From an uncultured Alphaproteobacteria bacterium (GTDB lineage: Bacteria; Pseudomonadota; Alphaproteobacteria; HIMB59), in NCBI GenBank assembly GCA_902555695.1, contig CACDTV010000003.1, positions 59,912-123,911 of the forward strand: a stretch of DNA of 64,000 nucleotides. The letters run 5' to 3'. The position numbers were made by a program, and so were the translations under genes. The notes under the pieces were generated by a model that was not told the origin of the DNA, made no database searches, and worked only from the letters and a program-made list of their open reading frames with translations. This document shows, in pieces, positions 9,021-51,062 of the stretch. Numbering within the stretch: the first letter of the stretch is position 1; each line of letters starts with the position of its first letter.

Positions 9021-9068
9021 AATTTACATAATTAGATATATTTTTAGTATTCAGTTAAGATTAATTAA

Positions 9069-9074
9069 TATTAT
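9069..9074 (+). promoter_or_regulatory. Candidate -10 element of glmU (near-leaderless)
   Basis: TATTAT lies 11 bases before the glmU ATG. With normal spacing, transcription would begin about 5 bases before the start codon. No convincing -35 hexamer or Shine-Dalgarno is visible, so this is tentative. Confidence 0.35.
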
Positions 9075-9085
9075 TTTACAACTTT

Positions 9086-14851: not shown

Positions 14852-14865
14852 TTTTCTTATTCATA

Positions 14866-15993: not shown

Positions 15994-17321
15994 TAATTAC
16001 ACGTTTTGCCCCAAGCCCAACTGGTCACCTGCACTTAGGAAATATGAGATCTTGCTTCTTAAATTGGGCATATTCGAAAAAAAATAATGGTAAATTTATT
16101 CTTAGATATGACGATACTGACCAAGAGAGAAGCAAAGATGAATATGTAAAGTCCATAGCATCTGATCTTGATTGGTTAAAAATAAAATATGATGAAACTT
16201 TTTATCAAAGCAAAAGAATTGAGAGATATAATGAACTTTTCGATCAATTAATTTCTTTAAAATTTGTTTACCCATGTTTTGAGTCAAGTGAGGATTTAGA
16301 TATAAAAAAAAAGTTGCAGTTAAAAGCAGGAAAACCTCCAATCTACGATAGATCCTCATTAAATTTATCTAAAGAAGAAATTGAAAAAAAAATAATTAAT
16401 GGTAATCAGCCTTATTGGAGATTTAAGCTTTCACAGACTAAAATTAAATGGAATGATTTAGTAAAAGGAGAGACCGAAGTAGATCTAGCTTCTCAATCAG
16501 ATCCTGTTTTAAGGAGGGCTGATGGTAGCTACCTCTACCATTTTCCAAGTGTCGTCGATGATATAGATATGAAAATATCTCACATTATAAGAGGCGAAGA
16601 CCACTTAACTAATTCAGCAATTCATTTAGAATTATTTAAATGTTTAAATTCTGATTTACCTTCATTAGGTCACAATCCATTAATGCTTAATGAGGATGGA
16701 ACAAAACTAAGTAAGAGAAATTTGGACTCAATTTCACTTAAGCAATTCAGAAACAGTGGATATACAGTTAACAGTATTCTATCTTATTTGTATTCACTTG
16801 GTTTAAACTCAGATTATGATTTTGAAACCATTTTAAAGAATAATTTTAGAGATTTTAATTTAGAGGATATTTCTAAAAACTTACCAAAAATTGATATTCA
16901 TAAAATTGACTTTTTTCAAAAAAATTCATTAAGGTCAATGAATTTAAAAGGTTTAAATAATGAATTCCCTGAGCTAGAAGAGTTAGCTTTAACTGAAACT
17001 GAGTGGGAACTTATTAAAGAAAATGTTGAAAAGTATGAAGATATAAGAAGTTTATGGAATATTATTAATAGAAGAGAAATTAAAATTCAACCCTCAGGTG
17101 ACTTTATCAAACTTTTGATTAAAAATTTGAATGATATTTCAAATTTTAGTTTTGATGAATATGTCAATTACTTAATGAGTATTGATAAATCACTATCAAA
17201 AAAAGAAATATTTACTAATACACGTTATATACTTACAGGTAATCAAAATGGCCCATCTGTTAAAGACCTATATAATTATTTTGGCCACGAAGGTTTAAAA
17301 AAAATTTTAGATGAATATTAA
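15990..17321 (+). CDS. gltX: Glutamyl-tRNA synthetase
   Basis: This 443-residue class I aminoacyl-tRNA synthetase has FAPSPTGHLHLGN (HIGH-type signature at 6-18), RYDDTDQERS, the RGEDHLTNSAIH site and the KMSKS-type loop GTKLSKRNL (about 236-244). The C-terminal anticodon-binding region is present but short. Alphaproteobacteria usually carry two GltX paralogs, one charging tRNA-Gln non-discriminatingly; which one this is cannot be told. It overlaps the preceding gene by 4 bp and cysS by 11 bp. Confidence 0.92.
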   Translation: MIITRFAPSPTGHLHLGNMRSCFLNWAYSKKNNGKFILRYDDTDQERSKDEYVKSIASDLDWLKIKYDETFYQSKRIERYNELFDQLISLKFVYPCFESSEDLDIKKKLQLKAGKPPIYDRSSLNLSKEEIEKKIINGNQPYWRFKLSQTKIKWNDLVKGETEVDLASQSDPVLRRADGSYLYHFPSVVDDIDMKISHIIRGEDHLTNSAIHLELFKCLNSDLPSLGHNPLMLNEDGTKLSKRNLDSISLKQFRNSGYTVNSILSYLYSLGLNSDYDFETILKNNFRDFNLEDISKNLPKIDIHKIDFFQKNSLRSMNLKGLNNEFPELEELALTETEWELIKENVEKYEDIRSLWNIINRREIKIQPSGDFIKLLIKNLNDISNFSFDEYVNYLMSIDKSLSKKEIFTNTRYILTGNQNGPSVKDLYNYFGHEGLKKILDEY

Positions 17322-18645
17322 TCTTTTTAACACTTTAACCAAAAAAAAAGAAAAACTTATACCTATTAACTCATCTGCGGTTAAGATGTATGCTTGTGGA
17401 CCTACCCTTTACAGTAATCCACATATAGGAAACTTCAGACCAATTATAGTTTTTGATATCTTATTTAGAGTCTTAAGACTAATTTTCGGAGAGGATAGTG
17501 TACGTTACGTCAGAAATATAACAGACATTGACGATAAAATTATAGATAAAGCCAATGAACTTAAAATATCAACAGATGAGTTGGTTAATTCTACTCAAAA
17601 AATATATCAACAAAATCTAAGTTCTTTATCAATATTATCTCCAACATATGAACCAAAAGCCACAGATTATATTTCAAAAATGATTGAGATGATTACATCT
17701 CTTATTGAAAAAAAATATGCCTATGTATCTGAAGGACATGTTTTATTTGAAGCAAAGAAATTTAAGGGTTATGGTTCTCTTTCTAAGTTCTCATTAAAAG
17801 ACATAATATCTGGTGCAAGAGTAGAAGTTGCCGATTACAAAAAAAATCCTGAAGATTTTGTCCTTTGGAAACCGTCAAAAACAAATGAACCTCATTGGGA
17901 TAGCCCATGGGGCAATGGTAGACCTGGATGGCACATAGAGTGTTCAGCTATGATTTCAGAATTACTTGGAGAAACCATTGATATCCATGCGGGTGGTATT
18001 GATCTTATTTTTCCACATCACGAGAATGAAATTGCTCAGTCAACATGTTGTCATGATAAAAAAATGTCGAACTTTTGGCTCCATAATGGATTTATAAATT
18101 TTAAGGGTGAAAAAATGTCAAAATCTTTAGGAAATACCTCAATTGTTAATGATTTATTATCTAAACACGATCCTGCTGTTCTCAAATATTCACTACTGAC
18201 TACTCATTATCGTCAACCACTTGATTTTTCAAACGATCTTATAAGTTATAGTGAAAACATCATTAATAAGTGGAGAGAACATATTAAAGAGGTTAATAGC
18301 AAAGAATTAGACTCAGAATTTGTTAATGCACTTTTAGATGACCTAAATACTCCAAAAGCACTGATGAGATTACAGCAAATAATAGCTAACATTAAAAAAG
18401 ACAAGAATAATGATGATTTATTAGCTCATTTTAATAATGGTTTAAGCTTATTAGGATTAAATCCTAGTTTTAATAAAACAGATTTAAACCTTGATAAAGA
18501 ATTTATTGAAAATATGATATCTCGCCGACAAGAGGCTAAAAAAAATAAAGACTTTGAACTAGCAGATAAAATTAGAGATGAGTTATTTAAACAAGGGATT
18601 GTTTTAGAAGACTCCAAAAATGGCACAACATGGAAGAAAAACTAG
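17311..18645 (+). CDS. cysS: Cysteinyl-tRNA synthetase
   Basis: This 444-residue class I synthetase contains KMYACGPTLYSNPHIGNFRP (zinc Cys and HIGH motif at about 25-44), RNITDIDDKI, GRPGWHIECSAMISELLG, the zinc-site HHENEIAQS and the KMSKS loop GEKMSKSLGN (about 264-273). The C-terminal stretch SRRQEAKKNKDFELADKIRDEL is the typical DALR-proximal tail. It overlaps gltX by 11 bp and the citramalate synthase gene by 16 bp, so translation of the three is coupled. Confidence 0.94.
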   Translation: MNINLFNTLTKKKEKLIPINSSAVKMYACGPTLYSNPHIGNFRPIIVFDILFRVLRLIFGEDSVRYVRNITDIDDKIIDKANELKISTDELVNSTQKIYQQNLSSLSILSPTYEPKATDYISKMIEMITSLIEKKYAYVSEGHVLFEAKKFKGYGSLSKFSLKDIISGARVEVADYKKNPEDFVLWKPSKTNEPHWDSPWGNGRPGWHIECSAMISELLGETIDIHAGGIDLIFPHHENEIAQSTCCHDKKMSNFWLHNGFINFKGEKMSKSLGNTSIVNDLLSKHDPAVLKYSLLTTHYRQPLDFSNDLISYSENIINKWREHIKEVNSKELDSEFVNALLDDLNTPKALMRLQQIIANIKKDKNNDDLLAHFNNGLSLLGLNPSFNKTDLNLDKEFIENMISRRQEAKKNKDFELADKIRDELFKQGIVLEDSKNGTTWKKN

Positions 18646-30503: not shown

Positions 30504-32001
<1,498 letters not shown>

Positions 32002-32094
32002 AGGAAAAAAAACTTTGAACTAAGTGTACGTTCGAAGTAACCACCGTCTATTTGTTTTGCTTTTTTCAACATGTGTTGATAAAGAGCATTGATT

Positions 32095-32171
32095 GGGCGT
32101 GTAGCTCAGTTGGTTAGAGCGCGCGCTTGATAAGCGTGAGGTCGGAGGTTCAAGTCCTCCCTCGCCCACCA
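32095..32171 (+). tRNA. tRNA-Ile (GAT)
   Basis: A 77-base tRNA in the 16S-23S spacer with encoded CCA. The anticodon stem CGCGC/GCGTG encloses TTGATAA (anticodon GAT). The acceptor GGGCGTG against CTCGCCC has a U6-U67 mismatch; all other acceptor pairs are intact. Confidence 0.96.
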
Positions 32172-32179
32172 ACAATGTT

Positions 32180-32255
32180 GGGGGATTAGCTCAGCTGGGA
32201 GAGCGCCTGATTTGCATTCAGGAGGTCAGCGGTTCGATCCCGCTATCCTCCACCA
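32180..32255 (+). tRNA. tRNA-Ala (TGC)
   Basis: A 76-base tRNA with encoded CCA, 8 bp after tRNA-Ile. The acceptor GGGGGAT against ATCCTCC contains the G3-U70 wobble that identifies tRNA-Ala to its synthetase. The anticodon loop is TTTGCAT (anticodon TGC). This is the standard spacer pair of alphaproteobacterial rRNA operons. Confidence 0.97.
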
Positions 32256-32370
32256 ACTTTTTAAAATCGTAAATATGTAAGCTGATAACACAGACGAATG
32301 ACTTGCACGAGTTATTCGTCAATTAAACAACTAATATAACAACAAATAACTACAAAAAGTTATTAACTAC

Positions 32371-32389
32371 AAACTTTTCACTGTGTGTT
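32371..32389 (+). other. Left arm of the pre-23S processing stem
   Basis: AAACTTTTCACTGTGTGTT pairs with 35112-35130 over 19 positions, with one A-C mismatch and one G-U wobble, and continues into the 5'/3' pairing of mature 23S (32393-32402 with 35101-35110). This is the expected RNase III substrate. Confidence 0.8.
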
Positions 32390-32392
32390 AAT

Positions 32393-35111
<2,719 letters not shown>

Positions 35112-35130
35112 AATACACAGCGAAAAGTTT
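35112..35130 (+). other. Right arm of the pre-23S processing stem
   Basis: AATACACAGCGAAAAGTTT is the partner of 32371-32389. Cleavage here would separate 23S from the 5S precursor. Confidence 0.8.
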
Positions 35131-35155
35131 TAACTATAATGTTATAAAAAGTTTG

Positions 35156-35266
35156 TGGCGGTCATAGCGGAGTGAAAAAACCCGATCCCATTTCGAACTC
35201 GGTCGTGAAGGCCTCCAGCGCCGATGGTACTTAGTCTTAAGGCTTGGGAGAGTAGGACGCCGCCTA
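35156..35266 (+). rRNA. rrf: 5S ribosomal RNA
   Basis: About 111 bases. The terminal helix pairs GGCGG (35157-35161) with CCGCC (35260-35264). Conserved internal parts are CCCGATCCCATTTCGAACTCGG and GCCGATGGTACTTAGTC, with GGGAGAGTAGGACG before the 3' helix. No strong hairpin terminator follows; only a T-rich stretch (35266-35278) is seen. No tRNA-fMet follows it, unlike many alphaproteobacterial operons. Confidence 0.93.
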
Positions 35267-35312
35267 TTTTATATTTTTAGTTTGCATATTCATAACACAG
35301 TAATAACCTCAT

Positions 35313-37920: not shown

Positions 37921-38979
37921 TTAATTCTTAGCTAAATATTCATGTAGTAAAATAGTATCTTCATCAAGGTCTATAGATATCTTTTTACCAATTATGTCAT
38001 CTACCTCTTTAGGTGAAATACCTGTGCCAGGTCTTTTTGCAATTAAGTCTTTGTCACTTATGGTATGACCTTTTTTTAATTTTTTATTTGTGACCAAGCT
38101 TCTTCTTGCATTTTTATGAGCAATTTTCTCATTGCTTAATAATTCTTTTTTCCCTGATCCAATACTTTTGAAAAATTCATTACAGTTTATTATATATTGT
38201 TTCATTTCATCTGGATCCAATGATAGCCAATGATCAGCACTTAATTTTAAATTTTTATCAATAGTAAAGTGTTTTTCAAAAACTCTCGAACCGTATAATG
38301 TTGATGATGGCCCAACTAAATAATCAAGAGTGTGATCACTTAATCCCAGTAAGTAATCTCCAAAGTTTTTATTTATATCTAACAAAGCAGATAAATTTGC
38401 ATCTTCAGTTTTTGTAGGATATGACAAAGTACAATGCATAATACATACTGGAGGATCACCATTTTCTCTAATCAATTTTAATGCATAATCAATATCTTCA
38501 ATCGTTGAAGCACCAGTAGATAGTAACAATGGTTTTTTATGATTAGCTAAATGCTTTAAAAGATTTTTATTAGTTATGTCACAAGAGGCTATTTTAAAAC
38601 CATTAATCCCTATATCTATTAACATATCTGAGGACTCCTCATCAAAAGGAGTTGAGAGAAATTCAATTTCATTGAAATCACAAATCTCTTTTAATCTGCG
38701 ATACTCTTTAGTTCCAAAGGAGTCTAAAAGTTTATAAGAGTCATATTGACTTCCAGTAGGCTTCTCTTCACCTTCCCAGTTCCAAAATCTCTCGGAGTTT
38801 TTTACAACTAGTTTTTCAGCTTTGTAAGTCTGGAATTTTATTATATCACAACCAGCGCTTTTAGCGGAGATTATTAACTTTTCACCTATATCTAAACTAT
38901 TATTATAATTTACACCTGCTTCAGCTATAATAACAATATTGTCACTTGAGCAATTTGTCTTTCCTATATTGAATTCCAT
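37921..38979 (-). CDS. neuB: NeuB-family nonulosonic acid synthase
   Basis: This 352-residue protein has an N-terminal TIM barrel and a C-terminal SAF/antifreeze-like domain (about 285-350, ending around KRPGTGISPKEVDDIIG). It would condense PEP with a six-carbon amino sugar to give sialic, legionaminic or pseudaminic acid. Visible parts are IIAEAGVNYNN (the usual GVNHNG has Tyr for His), IIKFQTYKAE, STPFDEESSDML, and the metal His residues in GLSDHTL and FEKHFTID. Which nonulosonic acid is made cannot be read. It starts the downstream end of a minus-strand block with the flippase, AsnB-type and methyltransferase genes. Confidence 0.87.
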   Translation of the reverse strand: MEFNIGKTNCSSDNIVIIAEAGVNYNNSLDIGEKLIISAKSAGCDIIKFQTYKAEKLVVKNSERFWNWEGEEKPTGSQYDSYKLLDSFGTKEYRRLKEICDFNEIEFLSTPFDEESSDMLIDIGINGFKIASCDITNKNLLKHLANHKKPLLLSTGASTIEDIDYALKLIRENGDPPVCIMHCTLSYPTKTEDANLSALLDINKNFGDYLLGLSDHTLDYLVGPSSTLYGSRVFEKHFTIDKNLKLSADHWLSLDPDEMKQYIINCNEFFKSIGSGKKELLSNEKIAHKNARRSLVTNKKLKKGHTISDKDLIAKRPGTGISPKEVDDIIGKKISIDLDEDTILLHEYLAKN

Positions 38980-39010: not shown

Positions 39011-40690
39011 CTATATTTTTTTTATTGAAATATTACTATTATTAACTTTCAAAATATAATCAAAGTCATTACTTTTACCAATTATATGTGAGCTCATTAT
39101 TATTGTTTTTTTTCCTTTGAATTTTTTCAAAAAATTTAAGATTAATTCTCTATTTTTTTTATCAACTGAGGATAGAGGCTCATCTAAAATTAATATATCA
39201 AACTCAGAGATAAATGCTCTAGCAATATTCAACCTTTGAATCTCTCCAAGAGATAGATCATTATTATCAAAATTTGGTTTTTTATTTAATTTATTTATCA
39301 GATGGCTTAATTTAAGCTCATTCAAAATATTTTTTAGTTTATTTCTATTAATTTTTCTCTCTAGTAACAAACTTCTATTAATTTTATCATCGAGAAGAGT
39401 TACTTTTTGACCAACATAAGAGATATTTTTTAGATTTATATAAGAATTTTTATATTTTTTTCCTTCAAATAAAAAATCTGCCTTTTTGAAACCACAAATA
39501 TAATTAATCAATGTAGACTTACCAGCACCTGATTTACCTGCAATTAAATAATAATTATTTGGTTTAATAGTTAATTTTTGATCTTTAATTATATGGTTTT
39601 TTTCGTAAAAAATATTCAAGTTTTCAATTTTTATTATTTTATTTACTCTAGTTTCCACTGTTTTATGATTTATTTCAGACTGATTTTTTAAATCTTTAAT
39701 AATGTCTATCGAACTTTTAAATGAACTATATCTATAAAGACAAGTATCCAAAGATATCTTAATTCTAGATATTGCAGGATAGAGTCTCAGAAAAACAAGC
39801 CCATATATTGAAAAGTAATACAATATTTGTTCATTAGTATATAGATAACTAGAAATTAAAAGTGAAAATAAAATGATCACTAGTAGTCCATTTTCAAATA
39901 TAATCCTCGGTATTCTTATAATCAAAAAATGATAAACATTTGCTTTCACAAAAAATCTAACCACCTTATTGAATTTATTGATTTGCGATAAACTGCTGGA
40001 AAAAATTTTATAGACCCTACTATTTATAAAAGTATCGTTAACAATAGAATTAATTAAAATTAAAGATGAAGTTCTGTTTGTGCCAGAGCTTTGTGTTTTT
40101 TTTGTATTTATCCTCAAATAGAAAATTAAAGTTAGAATAATTATAATTAGAATGTAAATACTATGTTCAGGGATTAATAAAATTAAAAAACCCAGCATAA
40201 AAAATAATACAATAGACTCAGTCATAAGATCTAATAACTTGTCCAAAAAAGAATTAAAAATTACATCAAACTCTTTAGCAAAAATTGTATTAATTTTATT
40301 AAGATCTAAATTGTCAACTTGATCTTGCTTCAGTTTTAAAATTAAAGAATAAGCCCTCCTTAAATAAATATAAATAGCCTCACTAACAAAGTAAGATTTA
40401 AATAGTTGTATTAAAACTTGATATATGGCTTTGATGAAAAAAATAAAAAGGCTTAAAATAACTATTTTTGAATAATCAAACCTACATAAATTAATATAAT
40501 TATTTAGTATGCCATTAGAAGCACATGATGTTTCAAAATTTGAAATTAAATTAACAATTACTATTAATGTTCCTACACCTATTAACTCAAATAACCCATT
40601 TAGAATTAGACCTATTAATAATACAAAAAGATAAAAGAATGATTTTGTACCAAATGTCTCTTCTATTGATTTAAAATATTTTTTTCCCAT
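39011..40690 (-). CDS. ABC transporter, fused membrane and ATPase domains (PglK-like flippase)
   Basis: This 559-residue half-transporter has about six membrane segments (roughly 17-300) and an ATPase domain from about 350. It has Walker A GKSGAGKST (385-393), Q-loop SYVGQKVTLLDD, Walker B ILILDEP (499-505), D-loop SSVD and switch His535. The signature is LSLGE (479-483) rather than LSGGQ, a notable deviation. Length and the segment RLYPAISRIKISLDTCLYRYSS resemble PglK, which flips undecaprenyl-diphosphate-linked glycans across the inner membrane. It overlaps the AsnB-type gene by 28 bp. Confidence 0.8.
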   Translation of the reverse strand: MGKKYFKSIEETFGTKSFFYLFVLLIGLILNGLFELIGVGTLIVIVNLISNFETSCASNGILNNYINLCRFDYSKIVILSLFIFFIKAIYQVLIQLFKSYFVSEAIYIYLRRAYSLILKLKQDQVDNLDLNKINTIFAKEFDVIFNSFLDKLLDLMTESIVLFFMLGFLILLIPEHSIYILIIIILTLIFYLRINTKKTQSSGTNRTSSLILINSIVNDTFINSRVYKIFSSSLSQINKFNKVVRFFVKANVYHFLIIRIPRIIFENGLLVIILFSLLISSYLYTNEQILYYFSIYGLVFLRLYPAISRIKISLDTCLYRYSSFKSSIDIIKDLKNQSEINHKTVETRVNKIIKIENLNIFYEKNHIIKDQKLTIKPNNYYLIAGKSGAGKSTLINYICGFKKADFLFEGKKYKNSYINLKNISYVGQKVTLLDDKINRSLLLERKINRNKLKNILNELKLSHLINKLNKKPNFDNNDLSLGEIQRLNIARAFISEFDILILDEPLSSVDKKNRELILNFLKKFKGKKTIIMSSHIIGKSNDFDYILKVNNSNISIKKI

Positions 40691-42528
40691 ATCCCAAGAA
40701 TAAATATTTGACCAATTAGATAACTATTTTTGTTGTCTTTAGAATTAATAAACTGGTCGATGTATTCAGAGAGTTTATTTTTATTTATATATGTTTTAAT
40801 TAAATCACTTGATAAACAAATATCATAAACCATGTCTCTAAGTGTATTTTTAATCCAATATGTTTGGGGATCTGCTAATGTTTTTTTATTTCTATAAAAT
40901 ATTTCTTTACCCATTACTCTCTTATGTGGGTATTTGAACAAAAACCTTTGGATTGTTTTACCAAATTTATACTCAGATGGTACAGAGAGTAGGTGTTCGA
41001 CTAAGTCATGATCTAAAAATGGAACTCTTGTTTCCATTGAGTACCTAGAGGAAGACCTATCACAGTACCTCAATGATCTAGGCAACTTATAGTGAAATAG
41101 ATCGTTGCATTGAGCATTAAGCAAATTGCTACTAAATTTATCAAAAAATAAACCTCTTTTTCTTACATAATTTATATTTTCAAAAAGAAAAAAATCATTT
41201 TTTTTGTATCCTGTACCATCAATTGTCGAAACGCCAGGAAAACTAAATTGACCTAAAGATGAAAGTACAAAATTGCTACTATTATTTGGATTATATAGGT
41301 TTTTGATAATAGATTTAACCTTGAAATTCACTTTATCAATGTTTTGTGTTTCTACCATATCTAAGAAGTATGGAATTAAATAATAAGGATAACCTGCACC
41401 CAACTCATCACCTCCAGAGCCATCTAAGATAACTTTAGATTCATTTTTATTTTTTTTATAAAGTAAATGTTGTGCGACAATTCTCAGTGAAGAAAATGGT
41501 TCGTATTCTGTCTCCATTGTAGAATTCAATTCTTTTTCTAAGTCGTTATCATTTAAAGTAGTTAGATAATGATCAGAATTCATCAAATTTGATAATACCT
41601 CAGACTCTTTTGTTTCAGAGTATTTCTCATATAGAGAATTGTCATAATCAAACGTAAATGATTTTAGCTTAAATTTTTTCTTATTTATCATCGAGGACAT
41701 AACAGCAGAGTCAATTCCACCAGATATATGAATACCTATTTCTGACTCAGTATCTAGGTGTTGATCAAAAGAGCTATCAAGGAGTTGTAAATATTTATCA
41801 GATAATTGATAAAAATTTTTATTAGAATTTATTTCTGATGCTGAGTTGATATTTTTTTCAAAATCATAATATTTTTTTATAGAGAAAGAACTATTGTCTA
41901 TTTCTAAAAAATGCCCTGGGGGTAATTGATTTATGTTTTTAAACCATGATTCGTTGTTTGAATTTATGAGACCATGTTGAAGAAAAATAACTAGTTCATC
42001 TTCATTGAGATCCTTGTTAATTCTATCAATTTCAAATAATGGAGCTATCTCAGATGAGAAGCAAATACCTCTATAATCAGCAAAGTAATGTAGAGGCTTA
42101 ATACCAAATCTGTCTCTAATTAAATATCTTTTATTATTTTTTTTATCAATTATGGCAATAGCAAACATACCCTTAATTAGATTTATAAAGTTAATTGAAA
42201 ACTTGTCGAAAAGATCAGAAAGAATTTCACTATCACATTTTGTTAAATATTTTTTATTTGGAAAATATTTTTCTTTCAACTGTTTATGATTATATATTTC
42301 TCCATTAAAGATAATAATCACATCTTTACTTTTGTTAAATAAAGGCTGAGATGCTAATTCACTTTTATCATTAATTGCAAGTCTATTGATACCAAAATTG
42401 GAATTCGTGTTTTCGTATATTCCTTTACTGTCAGGTCCACGAAAATTCATTTTTTCTAGTATTTTTTCTATAGAAAAATTATTATCTTTAAACTTTGAAA
42501 AGTAAAATTGTCCTGCAATACCACACAT
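40663..42528 (-). CDS. asnB: Asparagine-synthetase-type glutamine amidotransferase
   Basis: This 621-residue protein starts MCGIAGQFYFS with nucleophile Cys2 and has MNFRGPDSKGIY, IIFNGEIYNHKQL and RDRFGIKPLHYF in the class II glutaminase domain. The synthetase domain has IHISGGIDSAVM (ATP pyrophosphate loop, about 266-277), ILDGSGGDELGAGYPYY and SMETRVPFLDHDLVEHLLS. Both catalytic halves look intact. In glycan loci such proteins often amidate sugar uronic acids instead of aspartate (WbpS-like); the placement between a flippase and a methyltransferase supports that, but true asparagine synthesis is not excluded. Confidence 0.85.
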   Translation of the reverse strand: MCGIAGQFYFSKFKDNNFSIEKILEKMNFRGPDSKGIYENTNSNFGINRLAINDKSELASQPLFNKSKDVIIIFNGEIYNHKQLKEKYFPNKKYLTKCDSEILSDLFDKFSINFINLIKGMFAIAIIDKKNNKRYLIRDRFGIKPLHYFADYRGICFSSEIAPLFEIDRINKDLNEDELVIFLQHGLINSNNESWFKNINQLPPGHFLEIDNSSFSIKKYYDFEKNINSASEINSNKNFYQLSDKYLQLLDSSFDQHLDTESEIGIHISGGIDSAVMSSMINKKKFKLKSFTFDYDNSLYEKYSETKESEVLSNLMNSDHYLTTLNDNDLEKELNSTMETEYEPFSSLRIVAQHLLYKKNKNESKVILDGSGGDELGAGYPYYLIPYFLDMVETQNIDKVNFKVKSIIKNLYNPNNSSNFVLSSLGQFSFPGVSTIDGTGYKKNDFFLFENINYVRKRGLFFDKFSSNLLNAQCNDLFHYKLPRSLRYCDRSSSRYSMETRVPFLDHDLVEHLLSVPSEYKFGKTIQRFLFKYPHKRVMGKEIFYRNKKTLADPQTYWIKNTLRDMVYDICLSSDLIKTYINKNKLSEYIDQFINSKDNKNSYLIGQIFILGIWEKNILNQ

Positions 42529-43435: not shown

Positions 43436-44476
43436 GTGAAATTTTCAACTATTAGAGAGTTATTTTTATTATCCCAAAAAAAATTTAGTAAAGGTCTTTG
43501 CGAATGGGTTAATTCTGGTGCCGAAGATGATGTAACTATGAAAAGAAATATAGAGTATTTAAACAAGCTACAGCTATATCCTGAAATATTAAAAAAAAGA
43601 GAGAATTTAAATTTTAAGAAAAATTTTTTTGGAGAGGATATTTCTTCACCGCTCATTTTATCTCCAATGGGTCATCAAACCCAATTCCACAAAGATGGTG
43701 AGATTGAGATGTGTAAAGGTGTTGACAACTATGGATCGATCTCTTTTTTTAGCACACAAAGTAGGATTAAGCTTGAAGATGTAAGGGCTAAAAATAAAAA
43801 AGCAAATTTAGTATATCAAATATTTCTATTTGGAAATAAGGATTGGATAAAAGCTGAAATAAAAAGAGCTGAAAAAAACAATTGTTTAGCTTTAGCTATC
43901 TGTGTAGATGCCTCTATAAGATCATTTAGATACTCTGATAGAGAGTCAGGCTATGATGCAAGAAATTTTGGAAGAAGAACTCTAAAAGAACCACCAGATC
44001 CATCACAAGATTTATCTTATGACTGGGAAATAATCTCTTGGATTAAAAAAAATACCTCTTTACCTTTGATAGTTAAAGGACTTATTAATGTGAAAGATGT
44101 AAAAAAATGTATGGATTTTGGAGTTGAAGGTATTTGGATTTCAAATCATGGAGGAAGAATGTTCAATTCAAATATTTCAAGTATTGAAGCTTTAATGGAT
44201 ATTAAATCAATAATTAAAAATAAAAAAATTGTAGTGATAAGTGATAGTGGAGTTAGAAGAGGATCAGATGTAATAAAATTTCTCTGTTTAGGGTCACATT
44301 TTGTTGGAATAGGTAGACCAGCAATATGGGGGCTAGGACTAGATGGAAATAGAGGAGTTACAAATGTCTTTAATCATTTACATGAAGAGCTATATGTTGC
44401 ATCCATAAACGGTGGTTTTTCAAGTTTTAAAGATTATAATGATAAAAGGTTAAGATTTTCAAAAAATAAAATTTAA
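43436..44476 (+). CDS. FMN-dependent alpha-hydroxy-acid oxidase/dehydrogenase, divergent
   Basis: This 346-residue TIM-barrel flavoprotein of the LldD/glycolate oxidase family starts at GTG. Catalytic residues kept are Asp158, Lys214 (PLIVKGL), His238 and Arg241 (ISNHGGR), with the phosphate site DSGVRRGSDV and IGRPAIWGL. The two substrate-binding tyrosines of glycolate oxidase (Y24, Y129) are Trp24 (LCEWVNSGAED) and Phe130 (YQIFLF), and loop 4 is short. It should oxidise a 2-hydroxy acid to a 2-oxo acid, but on an unusual substrate. It is first in a nine-gene operon that makes CMP-activated sugars, so the substrate may be a sugar acid (inference). Its stop shares a base with the neuA start. 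Confidence 0.82.
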   Translation: MKFSTIRELFLLSQKKFSKGLCEWVNSGAEDDVTMKRNIEYLNKLQLYPEILKKRENLNFKKNFFGEDISSPLILSPMGHQTQFHKDGEIEMCKGVDNYGSISFFSTQSRIKLEDVRAKNKKANLVYQIFLFGNKDWIKAEIKRAEKNNCLALAICVDASIRSFRYSDRESGYDARNFGRRTLKEPPDPSQDLSYDWEIISWIKKNTSLPLIVKGLINVKDVKKCMDFGVEGIWISNHGGRMFNSNISSIEALMDIKSIIKNKKIVVISDSGVRRGSDVIKFLCLGSHFVGIGRPAIWGLGLDGNRGVTNVFNHLHEELYVASINGGFSSFKDYNDKRLRFSKNKI

Positions 44477-45192
44477 TGAAAACAATATGTATAATTCCTG
44501 CTCGCGGAGGATCTAAGGGCATCAGAAAAAAAAATATTCAATTGCTTGGAGGGAAGCCTTTAATTTATTATCCTATTAATTCCGCTATTAAGAGTGGTGT
44601 TTGTGATGTAGTGCTTGTATCAACAGATGACAAAGAGATTGCTAAAATAGCTAAAAGATATGGAGCAGAAGTTCCTTTTTTAAGACCAAAAAAATATTCA
44701 AAAGATTTTACAACTACTGAAGAAACTCTTAAACAATCCCTTCTTTCTTATGAGAACTATTCTGGCCATAAATTTGATATTTGTATTTTCTTAACTTGTA
44801 CTAATATATTTAGAAAAGTTAGTTGGATCGTAGAAGCTGTTAATACTCTTAAAGCGAAAAAAAATATTGATAGTGCTTTCTCTGTTCACCAATTATATAA
44901 ACATTTCTGGCATTTTAAGAACAATAAACTCTCTAAAGTTCTTCCTTGGATGAATAAATACACAAGTAGACAAGTTGCACCTAAACTTTTTAGGGAAGAT
45001 ACTGGATTGGCCTGTGCTACTAGATCAAAATTTTGGAGAGCTGGAAAAAGAATTGGACCAAATGTTCACATTATACCAAATGATGATAGCCTCTCAGGCA
45101 TTGATATTCACAGTTTGGATGACTTAGCACTCGCTAATGCTGTTTACAATAATTTAAAGAGAAATAAAAGACTAAGTGAATACTCACTGTAA
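44476..45192 (+). CDS. neuA: CMP-nonulosonic acid synthetase (NeuA/PseF/LegF family)
   Basis: This 238-residue cytidylyltransferase starts CIIPARGGSKGIRKKNIQLLGGKPLI, the CTP-binding signature of CMP-Neu5Ac synthetases (about 5-30). It has VSTDDKEIAKIA, FLRPKKYSKDFTTT and the C-terminal DIHSLDDLALANAV metal-binding segment. It activates a nonulosonic acid with CTP. Its likely partner is the NeuB-type enzyme at 37921-38979. Confidence 0.9.
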   Translation: MKTICIIPARGGSKGIRKKNIQLLGGKPLIYYPINSAIKSGVCDVVLVSTDDKEIAKIAKRYGAEVPFLRPKKYSKDFTTTEETLKQSLLSYENYSGHKFDICIFLTCTNIFRKVSWIVEAVNTLKAKKNIDSAFSVHQLYKHFWHFKNNKLSKVLPWMNKYTSRQVAPKLFREDTGLACATRSKFWRAGKRIGPNVHIIPNDDSLSGIDIHSLDDLALANAVYNNLKRNKRLSEYSL

Positions 45193-45208: not shown

Positions 45209-46027
45209 ATGAAAGATCTTAGTATTTTACTATTTGGTTATAATAGACCCTCACATTTAAGAAGGCTTTTAATAAGCTTAGAAAATCAAAAAATTAAAAA
45301 TAATATTTACTTTATATTGGATGGACCAAAATCAAAATCAGATAATATAGTACAAAAAGAAATAAAATTAATGACTGAGAAAAATCATTTTTTAAATATC
45401 CAGTGTTTTTTTAGAAAAAATAATCTTGGTTTGGCCAATTCTATTATTAATGGATTAACTAGAATTAAAAAAAAATCTAAATACTTTTTAATTTTGGAAG
45501 ATGACTGCATTCCACGTTTAGGAATTTTCGAATACATAAATTCTGCTTTAAAATTATCAAATAATAATCCACAAAATAATATTATTTGTTGTTATCAAAC
45601 TCCAAATATATTTGAAAAAAGTAACTATCTAAAATTTTATAATACAGATTTATTTATTCCATGGGGTTGGGTGATATCCAATCTAACTTTAGAAAGATTT
45701 ATTAAATTCTATAAAACCAAAGACTCTTGTCATATAGAAGATGAATTTTTTAATAAAATTTCAAATACAATAAAATCAAAAAAAAATATTTGGTCTTTAG
45801 ATTTTATGAAATTCTGTAAATTAAATAATATTTCTTTTATATATCCAAATTTTTCTTTTATTAAAAACATAGGTTTCGATGGATCAGGTATTAATTCGAA
45901 AATTACTAATAATTTTGATACAAAGTTTCAATCATTTAAAAATATTACAAATAAAATTTTAATTTCAAATAATATTAAAAAAAAGCAAAAAAACTTTATA
46001 AAAAGAAATCTTTCTTTTTTTTACTAA
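45209..46027 (+). CDS. GT-A type glycosyltransferase
   Basis: This 272-residue protein begins DLSILLFGYNRPSHLRRLLISLENQ, a Rossmann-like nucleotide-sugar binding start. It has FFRKNNLGLANSIINGL and the metal-binding LEDDCIPRLGIFEYINSAL (Glu-Asp-Asp at about 97-99), then IPWGWVISNLTLERFI. The pattern resembles GNT-I-like GT-A enzymes. No membrane anchor. Acceptor and donor unknown; placement just after neuA suggests it may transfer a sugar of the same glycan. Confidence 0.75.
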   Translation: MKDLSILLFGYNRPSHLRRLLISLENQKIKNNIYFILDGPKSKSDNIVQKEIKLMTEKNHFLNIQCFFRKNNLGLANSIINGLTRIKKKSKYFLILEDDCIPRLGIFEYINSALKLSNNNPQNNIICCYQTPNIFEKSNYLKFYNTDLFIPWGWVISNLTLERFIKFYKTKDSCHIEDEFFNKISNTIKSKKNIWSLDFMKFCKLNNISFIYPNFSFIKNIGFDGSGINSKITNNFDTKFQSFKNITNKILISNNIKKKQKNFIKRNLSFFY

Positions 46028-46028
46028 T

Positions 46029-47036
46029 ATGAATTTCGCAATAATTGGATATGGAAGTATTGGAAAAAAATACCTAAGAATACTTAATAAAAAGTTAAAT
46101 AGAAAAAGAGATAATATTTTCATTTTTGATAAGGTTTTTTCTAAAAATAAAAAAAAAATTAATAATTATTTTTATAATAGTAGTGAAATAAATAAATTAT
46201 CTTACAATTTTTCTTTATCAATAATATCTACTCCCTCCAACAGTCATTTTCAAGATGTAGTTAAATTGATAGGTAAATCAAACTCTATACTTATTGAAAA
46301 GCCATTTGTTTTAAGCCTTAAACATGCAAATAAATTAATTGAATTAAGTAAATATCATAAGGTCAAAATGTATGTTTGTTTTCAAAATAGATTAAATAAA
46401 TCAATTCAATATTTGGTACAAAAAAAAAGAATTTTTAATAAACCTTTTTATATTGATTGTTGTTTATTTTGGCATAGAGATTTTAACTATTATAAAAATA
46501 ATTGGAGGGGGAATTATAGCTCAGATGGGGGTGTTTTAACAAATCAAGCAATTCATTTGCTAGATACTATTACATATCTTTTTGGTGAAATAAAAAAATT
46601 TAACGCAATTGCAGGTTTTAATCAAAGTAAATTAGCTTCAGAGGATATTATAATACTAAATTCAATAACAAAAGAAAATTCAATATTTTCTTTAAGAGCT
46701 ACTACAAGATCTGACCATAATTACAATACAGAGATTAATATATTTTATGATAAGCAAAGAATTATGATTTCAGGTAAAAATTTTAACAAAATCTATGTAT
46801 ATAAAAATGGTAAAAAATATTTGTTAAAAAATTACTCTGAGACTTTTTATGATCAGTCAGGCAATGGGCACGAGAAAATAATAAGTTTATTTATAAAAAA
46901 CAAAAAAAAATCCCTTGAAATGTTTGAAATTTCTAAAAATCTACATGTTATGAATGTAATACACTCAATCTACAATCATATTTTTAGTTTTAAGCTAGAT
47001 AAAATTTCCACAAAAGGTAGTCTATTAGGAAGATGA
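46029..47036 (+). CDS. Gfo/Idh/MocA family oxidoreductase
   Basis: This 335-residue protein has the N-terminal NAD(P) fold FAIIGYGSIGKKYLRIL (about 2-18), the family motif LIEKPFVLS with the catalytic Lys, and QAIHLLDTITYLFGEI in the C-terminal domain carrying the conserved His. Family members oxidise or reduce sugar hydroxyls or C=O groups. It lies 1 bp after the glycosyltransferase gene and overlaps the DAHP-synthase-like gene by 4 bp. A second member is encoded at 50133. Confidence 0.82.
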   Translation: MNFAIIGYGSIGKKYLRILNKKLNRKRDNIFIFDKVFSKNKKKINNYFYNSSEINKLSYNFSLSIISTPSNSHFQDVVKLIGKSNSILIEKPFVLSLKHANKLIELSKYHKVKMYVCFQNRLNKSIQYLVQKKRIFNKPFYIDCCLFWHRDFNYYKNNWRGNYSSDGGVLTNQAIHLLDTITYLFGEIKKFNAIAGFNQSKLASEDIIILNSITKENSIFSLRATTRSDHNYNTEINIFYDKQRIMISGKNFNKIYVYKNGKKYLLKNYSETFYDQSGNGHEKIISLFIKNKKKSLEMFEISKNLHVMNVIHSIYNHIFSFKLDKISTKGSLLGR

Positions 47037-47911
47037 TTCAAAATAAAAAACCAACAAAGGATATATCAAAAGATGATATTGATAATAAATTATTTAAGGT
47101 CTGCAATAAAAAAACAAAAAGATTAGTAAAGATAAATAATAAAATAACCTTTGGTAATGGAGATTTAAATATCATAGCCGGTCCAAATGGAGTAGAGTCT
47201 AAAAAATTAATTCATAAAACAGCTTCTTTTTTAAATAGGCTAGGTGTCAAAATTCTTAGAGGACACGTTTTTAAACCTTTAACCTTCCCATATAGGTCTA
47301 GTCAATATTCTGAGTCTGGTGTTAAGGGTTTAGAGTGGCTTAAAGAAGTGCGATCTGAATATGATATGACAATTGTATCGGAAATTACAGAGCTTCAATA
47401 CCTTGATAAGATGTTAAATACAATTGATATACTCCAAATTGGTACAAGAAATATGCAAAACTTTGAACTTGTCAGAGAGGTTGCAAGATCAAAAAAACCA
47501 ATAATTCTAAAAAGACACTTTGGATCAAGTTTGAGGGACCTTTTGGGTGTAGCTGAGCATATTCTTTATGAGGGTAATTATAAACTCATTTTATGTGAAA
47601 GAGGTATTTCCGCTCCTCATACTCACCGTGAGACATCAAGATATTTATTAGATATCCAGGCTATACCAGCTTTAAGGGAATTGACAAATTTTCCTATAAT
47701 CTCAGACCCTAGTCATGCATCATTTTGGGCACCATGGGTGCCTAGTTTGGCTTATGCTTCTGTTGCTGCAGGAGTTGATGGATTAATTATTGAAACTCAT
47801 CCAAATCCGTCAAAATCTAAGGTAGACCCACTACAGCCTTTGAATTTTAATACATTTAAAAAAGTTTTTAAAAATATTAAATCACTAAAAAGATTGACTA
47901 AAAAATTTTAA
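47033..47911 (+). CDS. DAHP-synthase/KDO8P-synthase family aldolase with altered active site
   Basis: This 292-residue protein matches the type I-beta DAHP synthase fold: IIAGPNGVES (48-56), RGHVFKPLTFPYRSSQYS, IVSEITE, ILQIGTRNMQN, IILKRHF, LILCERG, SDPSHAS, IIETHPNP. Metal-binding His228, Glu254 and Asp265 are in place, but the fourth ligand Cys is Asn52, as in metal-independent KDO8P synthases. The erythrose-4-phosphate motif KPRTS is KPLTF, followed by YRSSQYS, reminiscent of the KDO8P synthase ANRSS. It likely joins PEP to an aldose, but perhaps not E4P. A normal class II DAHP synthase is encoded at 13502, so this copy is not needed for aromatic amino acids. It sits between Gfo/Idh and AroE-like genes. 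Confidence 0.83.
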   Translation: MIQNKKPTKDISKDDIDNKLFKVCNKKTKRLVKINNKITFGNGDLNIIAGPNGVESKKLIHKTASFLNRLGVKILRGHVFKPLTFPYRSSQYSESGVKGLEWLKEVRSEYDMTIVSEITELQYLDKMLNTIDILQIGTRNMQNFELVREVARSKKPIILKRHFGSSLRDLLGVAEHILYEGNYKLILCERGISAPHTHRETSRYLLDIQAIPALRELTNFPIISDPSHASFWAPWVPSLAYASVAAGVDGLIIETHPNPSKSKVDPLQPLNFNTFKKVFKNIKSLKRLTKKF

Positions 47912-47915
47912 ATTT

Positions 47916-48689
47916 ATGATTTCAGGCATTATTGGTCATCCGCTTAAGAACCCAAGGTCAATTTCAATTTGGAAAGATTTTTTTAAAAAAAATAATATTA
48001 AATCCGAGATGATTAAATGGGAAATAGATGATGCTAATTTTAATCAATTTATCACTGAACTATTTAATAATCCACATTTTTTAGCTACTGCAGTCACTAT
48101 GCCATATAAAAAAAAAGCATTAGACTTTGCAGAGGTGATTGATGTATCAGCACAATCAGCTCAGAGTACAAATTTATTAATTAAAAAGAATAATATTATA
48201 ACAGCATATAATACTGATGTATTAGGGGCTGAGAAAAGTATATTTAAACAAATATCAAAATTTAAATATATTATTATTTTAGGTTTTGGTGGAACTGGTG
48301 AGGCAATTTATAGATATTTTAACAAAAAATATCCAAAAAAAAATATTATTGTTATTAGTAGTAAAAAATTCAAAGAAGTTACATTTAAAAAAAAACTCAC
48401 ACAAAAACTTATTTCTCATAAATCAATTATTATAAATTGTACACCGTTAGGTAGTGATTTATCGAATGAATACCTAAATAAATTGCCAATATGTGAGGAT
48501 TTACTAAATGATATTGAGCCTAATTCTTTAATTTTTGATATTGTTTATTCACCAGAGAAAACTAAGCTTTATTATGAGTGTAAAAAAAGAAATATTAAAT
48601 ATATTAATGGTAAAAATATGAATACTTACCAAGCACAAGAAGCGTTAGATCTTATTTTTGATGCTTATAAAAAAAATGAAAAGATTTAA
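47916..48689 (+). CDS. Shikimate dehydrogenase (AroE)-like reductase
   Basis: This 257-residue protein has the AroE layout. Catalytic Lys65 (TMPYKKK), Asn86 (STNLL), Asp101 (YNTDVLG), NAD(P) motif ILGFGGTGEA (121-130) and the C-terminal Gln segment TYQAQEALDL are kept. The substrate carboxylate-binding motif, usually HSxSP, is NPRSIS at 12-17, so the first Ser is replaced by Pro. It would reduce a ring ketone or similar keto acid. It lies 4 bp after the DAHP-synthase-like gene and overlaps the SDR gene. Housekeeping shikimate dehydrogenase is possible but unlikely in this operon. Confidence 0.8.
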   Translation: MISGIIGHPLKNPRSISIWKDFFKKNNIKSEMIKWEIDDANFNQFITELFNNPHFLATAVTMPYKKKALDFAEVIDVSAQSAQSTNLLIKKNNIITAYNTDVLGAEKSIFKQISKFKYIIILGFGGTGEAIYRYFNKKYPKKNIIVISSKKFKEVTFKKKLTQKLISHKSIIINCTPLGSDLSNEYLNKLPICEDLLNDIEPNSLIFDIVYSPEKTKLYYECKKRNIKYINGKNMNTYQAQEALDLIFDAYKKNEKI

Positions 48690-49464
48690 TATAAAAAATA
48701 AAAATATACTTATAGCGGGTGGTTCAGGCCAGATTGGAAAAAGTATAATTGATTTTTTTTTAAAATTAAACGCAAGAATTATAAATCTTGATATTCAAGA
48801 TATTAAACAGCAGAAAATTAATTCAAATAGGAACTACTTATTCTATAAAATTGATTTTAGTAAAAAGGAGGATATAGATCTTATTTTTAACAACTTTATT
48901 AAAAAAAAACGCATAGATACTCTGATTAATCTTTTCCACTTCAAAGGTAACTTTAGGAAACTAGAGCCTAATAATAGTTTTTTTGAGTCATTTGATAAGT
49001 ATGACTTTTCAAATTGGAATAATACAATAAATGTAAATTTGAATGGATTATTTCTAATATGCCAGAAAACTCTTAAAATTATGATGGGCCAAAAAAAAGG
49101 TAATATAATTAATGTTTCCTCTACTTACGGTGTTGTATCTCCAAAAAAACATATTTATGGAAAATCTGGCATCAACAACCCGATAGCTTATTCAACCACA
49201 AAAGCTGGAATTATTAATTTCACAAGATATCTTGCTACTCATTATGCAGAATACAATATAAGAGCAAATGTTATTTCTCCTGGTGGTGTAAAAAATAAAA
49301 TGCAATCAAAAGAGTTTGTTAAAAACTATAAAATAAACACTCCCTTAAAACGTTTGGCAAATCCGTGGGAATATAATGAAGCTTTCTTATATTTAGCGTC
49401 AGATGCTTCTTCATATATGACCGGATCAAATTTAATTATCGATGGTGGCTGGACTGCTTGGTGA
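48676..49464 (+). CDS. Short-chain dehydrogenase/reductase
   Basis: This SDR has the cofactor motif AGGSGQIGKSI (about 14-24), the catalytic Ser in NVSSTYG, the YSTTK active site and NVISPGG. The C-terminus LIIDGGWTAW is typical of classical SDRs. I chose the ATG at 48676; in-frame ATG at 48661 and TTG at 48658 lie further inside the AroE-like gene. It is in the middle of the CMP-sugar operon and probably changes an oxidation state on a sugar intermediate. Confidence 0.83.
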   Translation: MKRFNIKNKNILIAGGSGQIGKSIIDFFLKLNARIINLDIQDIKQQKINSNRNYLFYKIDFSKKEDIDLIFNNFIKKKRIDTLINLFHFKGNFRKLEPNNSFFESFDKYDFSNWNNTINVNLNGLFLICQKTLKIMMGQKKGNIINVSSTYGVVSPKKHIYGKSGINNPIAYSTTKAGIINFTRYLATHYAEYNIRANVISPGGVKNKMQSKEFVKNYKINTPLKRLANPWEYNEAFLYLASDASSYMTGSNLIIDGGWTAW

Positions 49465-50143
49465 CGAAATAATTTTTTGTATTCAAGCTAGGGTAAAATC
49501 GAATAGGCTACCCGCCAAAATTTTTTTTGATTTTTACGGAGAAAAAATTATTAATAGAATTATCTCAATCTGTCTAAAGTGTACCAACTCTTCTAATATT
49601 TTTATTTTGACAGGATCAAAAGAAAATAACAGTATTATTGAAAACGAAACATCATTATCTGGTGTAAAAGTTTTTTATGGTTCAGAAAACGACCTTTATA
49701 GTAGATATAAAGATTTCATATCCAATATCTCTCCAAATTGTAAATATTTTTTTAGGATTACTAGTGATAATTATTTAATTCAACCTGAAATATTAAAAGC
49801 AATGGCAAATGATTTAATCAAATCTAACGTTTTATATTCCTACGTTAAACCGTTATCACATTTTTCTGGAGAATTAATATCAAGAGATTTTTTTCTTAAA
49901 TATAATCCAGATAAAATTACCCCATCAATACAAGAACATGTTACGACAGATATAAGAAATGATAAAAATATCAAAATAAAGTCATATGATAGCAATTTTA
50001 TGGATATAAATCATAATTTGAATCTTACGCTTGACGATATTAATGATTTTATATTTATGAAAAAAATTGAAAAATTAAATTTATGCAAAAATTTGGACTG
50101 TTTAGGTGATATTAAAGAATTAAAAAAACATTTTGAAATTTAA
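49442..50143 (+). CDS. SpsF-like cytidylyltransferase
   Basis: This 233-residue protein has the nucleotide-binding start FCIQARVKSNRLPAKIF (SpsF-type usual ARMGSTRLPGK), then NIFILTGSKENNSIIE, VFYGSENDLYSRYKDF and the metal-binding ITSDNYLI. SpsF-type proteins activate 3-deoxy-sugar acids with CTP alongside NeuB-type synthases. It is the second nucleotidyltransferase of this operon besides neuA. It overlaps the SDR gene by 23 bp and the next by 11 bp. Substrate unknown. Confidence 0.75.
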   Translation: MVAGLLGDEIIFCIQARVKSNRLPAKIFFDFYGEKIINRIISICLKCTNSSNIFILTGSKENNSIIENETSLSGVKVFYGSENDLYSRYKDFISNISPNCKYFFRITSDNYLIQPEILKAMANDLIKSNVLYSYVKPLSHFSGELISRDFFLKYNPDKITPSIQEHVTTDIRNDKNIKIKSYDSNFMDINHNLNLTLDDINDFIFMKKIEKLNLCKNLDCLGDIKELKKHFEI

Positions 50144-51062
50144 TATCTGTATTATTGGTAAAGGTTCAATTGGGAAAAGACACCATAGAATTCTAGAGAA
50201 AAACTTTGACTGTAATATATTTTTTATTCGGAGATTTCCTAAATTTTTAAATGAAATTGAATTAAAAATTTCTTTAATAAAAAAATTTAATTTTGATTTT
50301 TTTATTATCTGTAATCCTACTATTTTACACTATGCAGTTATCAAAAGATTAATCATCTTTAAAAAACCTATATTGGTTGAAAAACCACTTTTTTATCCAA
50401 AAAATATCATTAACAATAAGCTGATACTTAAAAATAAAAAAATAATCTTTACCGCATATATGATGAGATATGATAAAGGTATTAACTATCTATTAAAATA
50501 TGTTAGGTCAAGAAAACCCATAAGTGCTGATATTAATTGGTTAACATACATGCCAAATTGGCACAAAAATGAAAATTATAAAAATTCTTACGCTTCAATT
50601 CAAAAATTAGGAGGAGGGGTAATTTCTACATGTTCTCATGAAATTGATTTGGCGATTTATTTATTTGGGGACGTTATAAGTGTATACTCAACTAATTTAA
50701 ATCAAGGTTTAAAAAACATTGATGTTGAAGATAAAAATATCTCAATACTTAAACATAAGAATGGTGTTGTTTCTAAAATATTATTAGATTTTTCATCCAG
50801 GTATATTGAAAGAAAAATTAAGCTATATTATGAAAAATTCATTATTGAGTGGGATTTTCTAAGTTCTGCAATATTTAAAATCACAAATACTAATACAAAA
50901 AAAATTTATACATATAAACAGAATATTGATGACTTATATTTAAAAGAATTAAATGAATTTATTTTCTCTAATAAGAAAAGTATAAGAATTAACTATGAAA
51001 ATACTATTCAAACACAAAATATAATAAAAAAATTATTTTTATCTGCTAGGAGAATTTATTAA
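50133..51062 (+). CDS. Gfo/Idh/MocA family oxidoreductase, second copy
   Basis: This 309-residue protein begins FNICIIGKGSIGKRHHRIL with the dinucleotide motif, has ILVEKPLFYPK with the catalytic Lys and CSHEIDLAIYLFGDV with the conserved His. It is distinct from the copy at 46029, with limited identity beyond the motifs. It ends the operon, overlapping the convergent glycosyltransferase gene by 24 bp. Confidence 0.8.
   Translation: MKFNICIIGKGSIGKRHHRILEKNFDCNIFFIRRFPKFLNEIELKISLIKKFNFDFFIICNPTILHYAVIKRLIIFKKPILVEKPLFYPKNIINNKLILKNKKIIFTAYMMRYDKGINYLLKYVRSRKPISADINWLTYMPNWHKNENYKNSYASIQKLGGGVISTCSHEIDLAIYLFGDVISVYSTNLNQGLKNIDVEDKNISILKHKNGVVSKILLDFSSRYIERKIKLYYEKFIIEWDFLSSAIFKITNTNTKKIYTYKQNIDDLYLKELNEFIFSNKKSIRINYENTIQTQNIIKKLFLSARRIY

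Follow-up and report, generated by a model that had tools for sequence, protein, structure and literature searches.

Several described systems come close to a pair of adjacent genes in a 64,000-nucleotide stretch of DNA (the window) from an uncultured alphaproteobacterium of the lineage HIMB59 (assembly GCA_902555695.1, contig CACDTV010000003.1, positions 59,912 to 123,911 of the forward strand). The first gene encodes an aldolase related to DAHP and KDO8P synthases, the second a protein related to the shikimate dehydrogenase (SDH) AroE. With the type I-beta DAHP synthases (TIGR01361) the aldolase shares the fold, 34-43% identity, the residues on the phosphoenolpyruvate (PEP) side and the His, Glu and Asp metal ligands; unlike them it has Asn for the metal-binding Cys, KPLTF for KPRTS and two three-residue insertions, one with a His-Thr-His (HTH) motif, and it stays below the family cut-off in a clade of its own on a long branch. 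Metal-independent KDO8P synthases also have Asn at the metal-Cys position, but the aldolase lacks their ANRSS motif, is 21-25% identical to them and lies outside their clade. As in the NeuB/PseI synthases, PEP condensation towards an ulosonic acid activated with cytidine monophosphate (CMP) is predicted and the operon partners are similar, although the aldolase is not of the NeuB family and has no SAF domain. The second protein resembles AroE and YdiB in fold, catalytic Lys and Asp, Asn86, Gln239 and GxGG; it differs in having [AP]RS[PIV] plus Trp for HSxSP, in the loss of Asn59 and in Asn for the Leu or Phe before the Gln. The 5-ketofructose reductases (e.g. TM-KFR; PDB 7cok) are likewise SDH-type enzymes that act on a ketosugar and not on shikimate, but they serve sugar utilisation rather than glycan synthesis. 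CMP-ulosonate biosynthesis is resembled through a linked PseF/KdsB-type cytidylyltransferase.

Probably, the two proteins are diverged members of the DAHP synthase and AroE families whose product is a 3-deoxy-2-ulosonic acid distinct from DAHP, and this acid is activated with CMP by a neighbouring enzyme for a surface glycan. Two sets of observations carry this reading. First, the proteins form two single-clade subfamilies with fixed changes at positions where the parent families contact substrate or metal; second, the pair is linked with a CMP synthetase and a Gfo/Idh dehydrogenase (together the module), and separate housekeeping enzymes are present in the genome. The features of the pair are as follows.

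47033..47911, plus strand: predicted DAHP-synthase-derived PEP aldolase, 292 aa (Pfam DAHP_synth_1, 169 bits)
47177..47200, plus strand: AGPNGVES in the aldolase, with Asn52 at the metal-binding Cys site of DAHP synthases
47273..47302, plus strand: KPLTFPYRSS loop in the aldolase, which replaces the acceptor motif KPRTSPY and includes a three-residue insertion
47606..47629, plus strand: ISAPHTHR loop after ERG in the aldolase, a three-residue insertion with the invariant HTH
47916..48689, plus strand: predicted AroE-derived dehydrogenase, 257 aa (Pfam Shikimate_dh_N, 47 bits)
47949..47972, plus strand: NPRSISIW in the AroE-like protein, an altered carboxylate-binding motif (HSxSP in ordinary AroE)

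Both reading frames are open on the same strand with 4 nt between them, and the start of the aldolase gene overlaps the stop of the Gfo/Idh gene upstream. Together with the Pfam matches this confirms that the two genes called in the sequence-only reading of the window are real.

The aldolases of 33 modules were aligned with 8 type I-beta DAHP synthases and 6 KDO8P synthases. Position 52 is Asn in all 33 module proteins and Cys in all 8 DAHP synthases; the KDO8P synthases have Cys in four cases and Asn in two. The acceptor motif reads KPLTF or KPLSF throughout the module (33/33) and KPRTS or KPRTN in the DAHP synthases (8/8). Within it Leu83 replaces the invariant Arg, which we take to be the contact to the phosphate of erythrose 4-phosphate (E4P), and Phe85 stands in place of Ser or Asn. 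Consequently, Asn52, Leu83 and Phe85 are found in 33/33 module aldolases and in 0/8 DAHP synthases, and since KPLTFPYR and HTH (as well as VDP) also occur in all of the best 120 of 7292 aldolase relatives, the substitution pattern is beyond chance. Asn at the metal-Cys site was read in 116 of these 120, the pattern having no match there in the other four. Two loops are longer by three residues each, one after PY and one after ERG[IV], the latter containing HTH in 33/33; V264-D265 is likewise invariant (Pro follows in 32), whereas the references have [SC]-D. Residues K160, E189, R190, H228, E254 and D265 are kept in 33/33, and the residues of this fold that we assign to PEP binding are presumed ones. 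The sequence-only reading had pointed out Asn52 and the change from KPRTS to KPLTF, and the alignment agrees with both. It had also likened YRSSQYS to the ANRSS motif of KDO8P synthases. This likeness is not positional, because YRS sits in the three-residue insertion that is missing from both reference families, and in the alignment with KDO8P synthases ANRSS was not found in the module aldolases.

With the TIGR01361 model the window aldolase scores 251.7 bits and an alphaproteobacterial module aldolase 261.2 bits, both below the cut-off of 267.75; with the KDO8P synthase model the window protein reaches 96 bits against a cut-off of 314. A Pfam scan of the window protein returned PF00793 only, and neither the NeuB family PF03102 nor the SAF domain was found. 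The AlphaFold2 model (predicted local distance difference test, pLDDT, 86.9; KPLTF and HTH loops less certain) was matched by Foldseek best with type I-beta DAHP synthases (1vs1, 1rzm, 1zco) and then with KDO8P synthases. In the aldolase tree a 100/100 branch with a long stem (1.85) sets the module proteins apart from the rest, the KDO8P synthase clade included. When the KDO8P synthases are left out, the module and the type I-beta DAHP synthases separate; when the tree is rooted on them, the module clade emerges from within the type I-beta DAHP synthases, but the support is weak (70/83 at the nearest join; DAHP synthases a single group in 16% of the bootstrap trees). As the rooted tree fails to set the clade apart from the DAHP synthases, it lowers our confidence in a product other than DAHP and raises that in an extra DAHP synthase. 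The pair would then consist of this synthase and a shikimate or quinate dehydrogenase and would serve to decorate the glycan with an aromatic or cyclitol acid, while AroB and AroD would come from the housekeeping pathway. The fold, the sequence families and a score just under the cut-off all match such a proposal, but the Arg and the Ser of KPRTS are replaced in 33/33 module aldolases, and further points against it come from the AroE-like protein and from the neighbouring genes.

Of the four metal ligands the Cys is lost in 33/33 module aldolases and the other three are kept. As these aldolases do not fall within the KDO8P synthase clade, their Asn seems to have arisen independently. The enzyme might still depend on a metal, the lost Cys being made good by a rebuilt site with the invariant HTH loop and His162. 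The kept ligands, HTH in 33/33 and His162 in 30/33 would suit such a site, but we think it somewhat unlikely: PMC3052366 gives Cys-to-Asn as the change marking metal-free KDO8P synthases, and in the model HTH belongs to a loop of lower certainty (block means 66 and 78).

For the AroE-like protein 33 module sequences were compared with 23 ordinary copies; one of the 33 (L051) has no N-terminus in the called open reading frame. All 32 with an N-terminus carry [AP]RS[PIV] plus Trp in place of HSxSP, which occurs in none of them (0/32). In E. coli numbering, Ser14 is changed to Ala or Pro in 32/32 and Ser16 is kept; position 15 is Arg (window Arg14) in 32/32 versus 2/23 ordinary copies, and position 20 is Trp (window Trp19) in 32/32 versus 0/23. 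The ordinary copies have His13 in 22/23 and Ser14 in 23/23. Further inside the protein, Asn59 is lost and L241 is changed to Asn in 33/33, and Thr61 is Ala in 7/33. Kept in 33/33 are GxGG, Lys65, Asn86, Asp102 (window Asp101) and Gln244 (window Gln239), and we assume for these four residues the roles usually given to them in AroE. The motif pattern is present in 91 of the 102 listed relatives of the window protein, the other 11 including truncated copies, conservative variants and ordinary enzymes; for the protein of locus L060 it is present in all of the best 120 of 967 relatives. The window protein stays below the cut-offs of all 17 AroE-type models matched (TIGR00507: 115.1 bits versus 200.2). 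In the AroE tree a 100/100 branch divides the module proteins from 22 housekeeping copies as well as from E. coli AroE and YdiB. The AlphaFold2 model (pLDDT 93.4) has the SDH fold, and Foldseek matched it with shikimate dehydrogenases, the 5-ketofructose reductase 7cok coming at rank 50. The complete replacement of the AroE motif (32/32) is a second point against an extra DAHP synthase with its shikimate or quinate dehydrogenase.

The source genome (1.08 Mb, 71% complete) contains one further AroE-family gene, G000:C4:113686, with HSLSP intact and in a setting read as maf-aroE-coaE-dnaQ. The one further DAHP_synth_1 gene is kdsA, its setting read as pyrG-kdsA-eno, and a class II DAHP synthase (669 bits) is encoded at window position 13502. 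With these copies present, neither gene of the pair is the sole copy of its family. Among 24 module genomes searched with the housekeeping AroE, 23 have at least two AroE-family matches, and the partial genome G433 has one. The best copies outside the module carry HS[LR]SP in 21/23; that of G157 reads ASRTP, and in G428 none was found by pattern.

These results bear on what else the sequence-only reading had claimed. It had named the class II DAHP synthase at 13502, which is there, had noted that Lys65 and Asp101 are kept and HSxSP is replaced by NPRSIS in the AroE-like protein, as the alignment bears out, and had made its proposal dependent on a second aroE, which was found. Its central proposal, a paralogous pair acting on a non-shikimate sugar acid, holds in part: both proteins fall in 100/100 clades beside a second aroE, but on the family trees it had called for only the AroE-like protein stands apart without reservation, the aldolase clade, when rooted, branching weakly from among the type I-beta DAHP synthases. 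The surface-glycan setting it had described is upheld by the profile matches of the neighbours to CMP-sugar genes. These genes form a plus-strand run that begins at 43436, with neighbours overlapping slightly or no more than 16 nt apart; in it the pair follows upon four genes.

43436..44476, plus strand: protein of the flavin mononucleotide (FMN)-dependent alpha-hydroxy-acid dehydrogenase family (Pfam FMN_dh, 274 bits), which recurs in the module without being universal
44476..45192, plus strand: PseF-like CMP-sugar (ulosonate) cytidylyltransferase (TIGR03584 PseF, 141 bits, below the cut-off of 205.7)
45209..46027, plus strand: family 2 glycosyltransferase, candidate for sugar transfer (Pfam Glycos_transf_2, 30 bits)
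46029..47036, plus strand: Gfo/Idh/MocA family dehydrogenase, core member of the module (Pfam GFO_IDH_MocA, 45 bits)

After the AroE-like gene come an SDR, a second cytidylyltransferase and a second Gfo/Idh gene.

To follow the linkage, 32 loci (L numbers; genomes have G numbers) were compared: the window, 12 found by alignment of the AroE-like protein and 19 found by the aldolase alone at E values up to 1e-40 or 1e-70, with four places in the genomes or contigs of L005, L006, L009 and L012 not counted again. Neighbourhoods were compared for aldolase relatives passing 1e-40, 1e-70 or 1e-75, and in GC-rich loci the gene calls are longest open reading frames with approximate starts. A thirteenth AroE-like locus (L017, Clostridiales) was dropped, its stretch being without an aldolase match. 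All 12 loci fetched by the AroE-like gene contain the aldolase, and 18 of the 19 fetched by the aldolase contain the AroE-like gene. In the exception, L061, an AroE-like gene lies beside a CMP synthetase on a separate 3.8-kb contig of the same fragmented genome. A CMP-synthetase family gene is found within 8 kb of the aldolase in 29/32 loci, and so is a homologous Gfo/Idh cluster (29/32), a linkage beyond what could be read from the window sequence by itself. A CMP-ulosonate-type synthetase as the steady partner is a further point against the extra DAHP synthase. The same holds for aroB and aroD, of which no homologue was found among the recurrent neighbours typed, several clusters being without a Pfam match. 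Taken with the replaced motifs, this makes an extra DAHP synthase quite improbable in our view.

Among the 31 loci with both genes, the two are on one strand in 30, less than 250 nt apart in 22 and more than 1 kb apart in 9. Such islands shuffle, and together with the nine distant pairs this would suit genes that merely travel along in a variable glycan island, with no joint function. We judge this very improbable, as the linkage works in both directions across distant genomes, one of them outside the window's class, and as the partners diverge together. Their tree distances correlate with r 0.73 (31 loci, 0/2000 permutations as high), the partial correlation given the housekeeping aroE distances is 0.70 (20 loci, 0/2000 permutations), and a subset of 13 among the more distant loci gives r 0.58 (p 0.002).

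In the 22 close pairs the aldolase gene comes first in 19 and the AroE-like gene in 3. This variation would allow the two steps to be reversed, the AroE-like enzyme first turning a keto-sugar into the acceptor aldose by reduction or oxidation and the aldolase product going straight to the CMP synthetase. There is precedent for the first of these steps: in PMC7954740 an SDH-related enzyme was purified and characterised and reduces 5-ketofructose. However, Arg14/Ser15 are invariant in what was the carboxylate pocket, which points to an acid still being bound; this fits an ulosonate better than a neutral sugar, and we regard the reversed order as unlikely.

Other neighbours recur less regularly. 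An AsnB-type gene is within 8 kb of the aldolase in 16/32 loci, which hints at an amidated sugar acid, and in the window such a glutamine amidotransferase gene is located at 40663-42528. The FMN dehydrogenase is within 8 kb in 13/32 loci, and in the split locus L124 it is next to the CMP synthetase. A family 2 glycosyltransferase of the window type occurs in 9/32 loci and a glycosyltransferase-cytidylyltransferase fusion type in 13/32 (Pfam checked on two); a CapD-like polysaccharide gene and an ABC transporter are each present in 12 of the 32.

Some single loci are worth recording. In L050 a CMP synthetase is fused to a methyltransferase-like domain (7473-9221, 582 aa) and a family 2 glycosyltransferase to a cytidylyltransferase-like domain (6099-7466, 455 aa). 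In L052 a radical-SAM/SPASM protein and a HisC-like aminotransferase (7254-9115) are situated between the aldolase and the AroE-like gene, and L046 has two open reading frames of similar size and start at the matching site. The window contains a separate gene for a NeuB-type synthase (37921-38979), which together with the SDR, cytidylyltransferase and Gfo block (48673-51062) resembles a further ulosonate cassette that is separate from the first; in L056 these four families are joined in a single block (14865-18337).

From these data we propose the following route for the preferred reading. The aldolase would condense PEP with an aldose other than E4P, without a Cys-bound metal. PEP condensation is presumably kept, because the residues on the PEP side and the catalytic residues are kept, and the acceptor is presumably different, because its motif is replaced and two loops are longer. 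As no recurrent phosphatase was found among the neighbours typed, an unphosphorylated acceptor, as in NeuB, is mildly favoured. In its ring form the ulosonate would mimic shikimate, having an acid on a six-membered ring, with its C4 matching C3 of shikimate. Given this resemblance, the AroE-like enzyme may oxidise or reduce the ulosonate at C4, the Arg/Ser pair holding the altered acid side. The Gfo/Idh enzyme may carry out the partner redox step, the PseF-like enzyme would make the CMP sugar and the family 2 glycosyltransferase would use it. Whether this amounts to a class of bacterial CMP-ulosonic acids not described before, made with shikimate-pathway stock (a metal-free, DAHP-synthase-derived aldolase acting on a non-E4P aldose, and an AroE-derived sugar-acid dehydrogenase acting on the aldolase product in its ring form) and encoded in the surface-glycan islands of marine alphaproteobacteria, Pelagibacterales among them, we consider evenly balanced.

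Several points weigh against this reading. The aldolase misses the DAHP synthase cut-off narrowly and arises among the DAHP synthases when rooted, so that it may be a changed DAHP synthase. With three of four metal ligands kept and invariant histidines gained, another metal site may be present. A further SDH-like protein in PMC7954740 was inactive with 5-ketofructose; with one such enzyme active and one inactive, there is a precedent for a sugar substrate but no general rule. That no phosphatase or aroB recurs holds for the typed neighbour clusters, several clusters being without a Pfam match, and the substrate, the product and the metal independence of the pair are deduced from sequence. Finally, a 33rd locus (L114, 8434-10240) in the genome G837, outside the window's class, has an aldolase 76% identical to that of L060 and an AroE-like gene overlapping it, and in the 19.5 kb around this pair neither a Gfo gene nor a CMP synthetase was found. 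On this contig, at a distance of about 63 kb, a second unit (L124, 7761-10804) contains an FMN dehydrogenase, a weak match to Gfo and a CMP synthetase that shares 63% identity with the one of L059. The pair is thus apart from the remaining module, which counts against a fixed four-gene operon.

The distribution of the module is patchy. In the window's family the aldolase was found in 2/52 genomes at 1e-40 and the AroE-like protein in 1/52 at 1e-30, the copy of the second genome being too diverged for this threshold. At 1e-70 the aldolase is present in 6/385 genomes of the class, own genome included, and the count is 17/397 in the family of G433, the named Pelagibacterales cell from which L005 comes. 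With the L060 query 3/398 genomes of the phylum were found at 1e-75, again including its own. The glycan island of the window starts right after an rRNA operon (5S end at 35268), and rRNA genes are in the module's stretch in 6 of 14 relatives scanned (L006, L009, L012, L048, L049, L056), so that the module is often at one hot spot. The operon ahead of the window's island (30504-35268) is a complete 16S-tRNA-Ile-tRNA-Ala-23S-5S unit. Named relatives of the AroE-like protein come from Roseibium, Nisaea, a Rhodospirillaceae, an Azospirillum metagenome-assembled genome (MAG) and a Pelagibacteraceae bacterium, those of the aldolase from Pelagibacter and a Marinimicrobia MAG; where source annotations are given, they read DAHP synthase, shikimate dehydrogenase or hypothetical protein. 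Two scans of a viral collection found no relative. Phage and plasmid records gave 15 and 105 matches, all below 60% identity (best 41% among 60 plasmid rows listed), and of 11 plasmid matches inspected 10 are annotated as DAHP or KDO8P synthases and one is without annotation. Several short phage records contain host-like DAHP synthase genes and are possibly host DNA.

Text searches of one open-access library, judged by their listings, brought up no account of either the pair or the module. The words shikimate and DAHP do not occur in the main text of the nab-cluster paper PMC7371886, and PMC3052366 and PMC8430335 deal with matters other than the pair or module. Heptulosaric acid was considered as a product and rejected, as the titles and abstract starts among the matches listed gave no link to such genes. 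We regard the module as a variant of CMP-ulosonate biosynthesis that is undescribed in the open-access literature searched.

The surface sugars of such marine cells matter for phage attack and grazing. The annotations found for the two proteins conceal what is probably a pathway to a sugar in ocean bacteria, and the named genera Roseibium and Nisaea, with their AroE-like relatives, make our reading testable. If it is true, the module would be an independent case of metal-ligand loss in the DAHP/KDO8P synthase fold and a case of AroE turned to sugar acids, and it would give the enzymes that start CMP-ulosonate sugars a third evolutionary origin, in addition to KDO8P synthase and NeuB.

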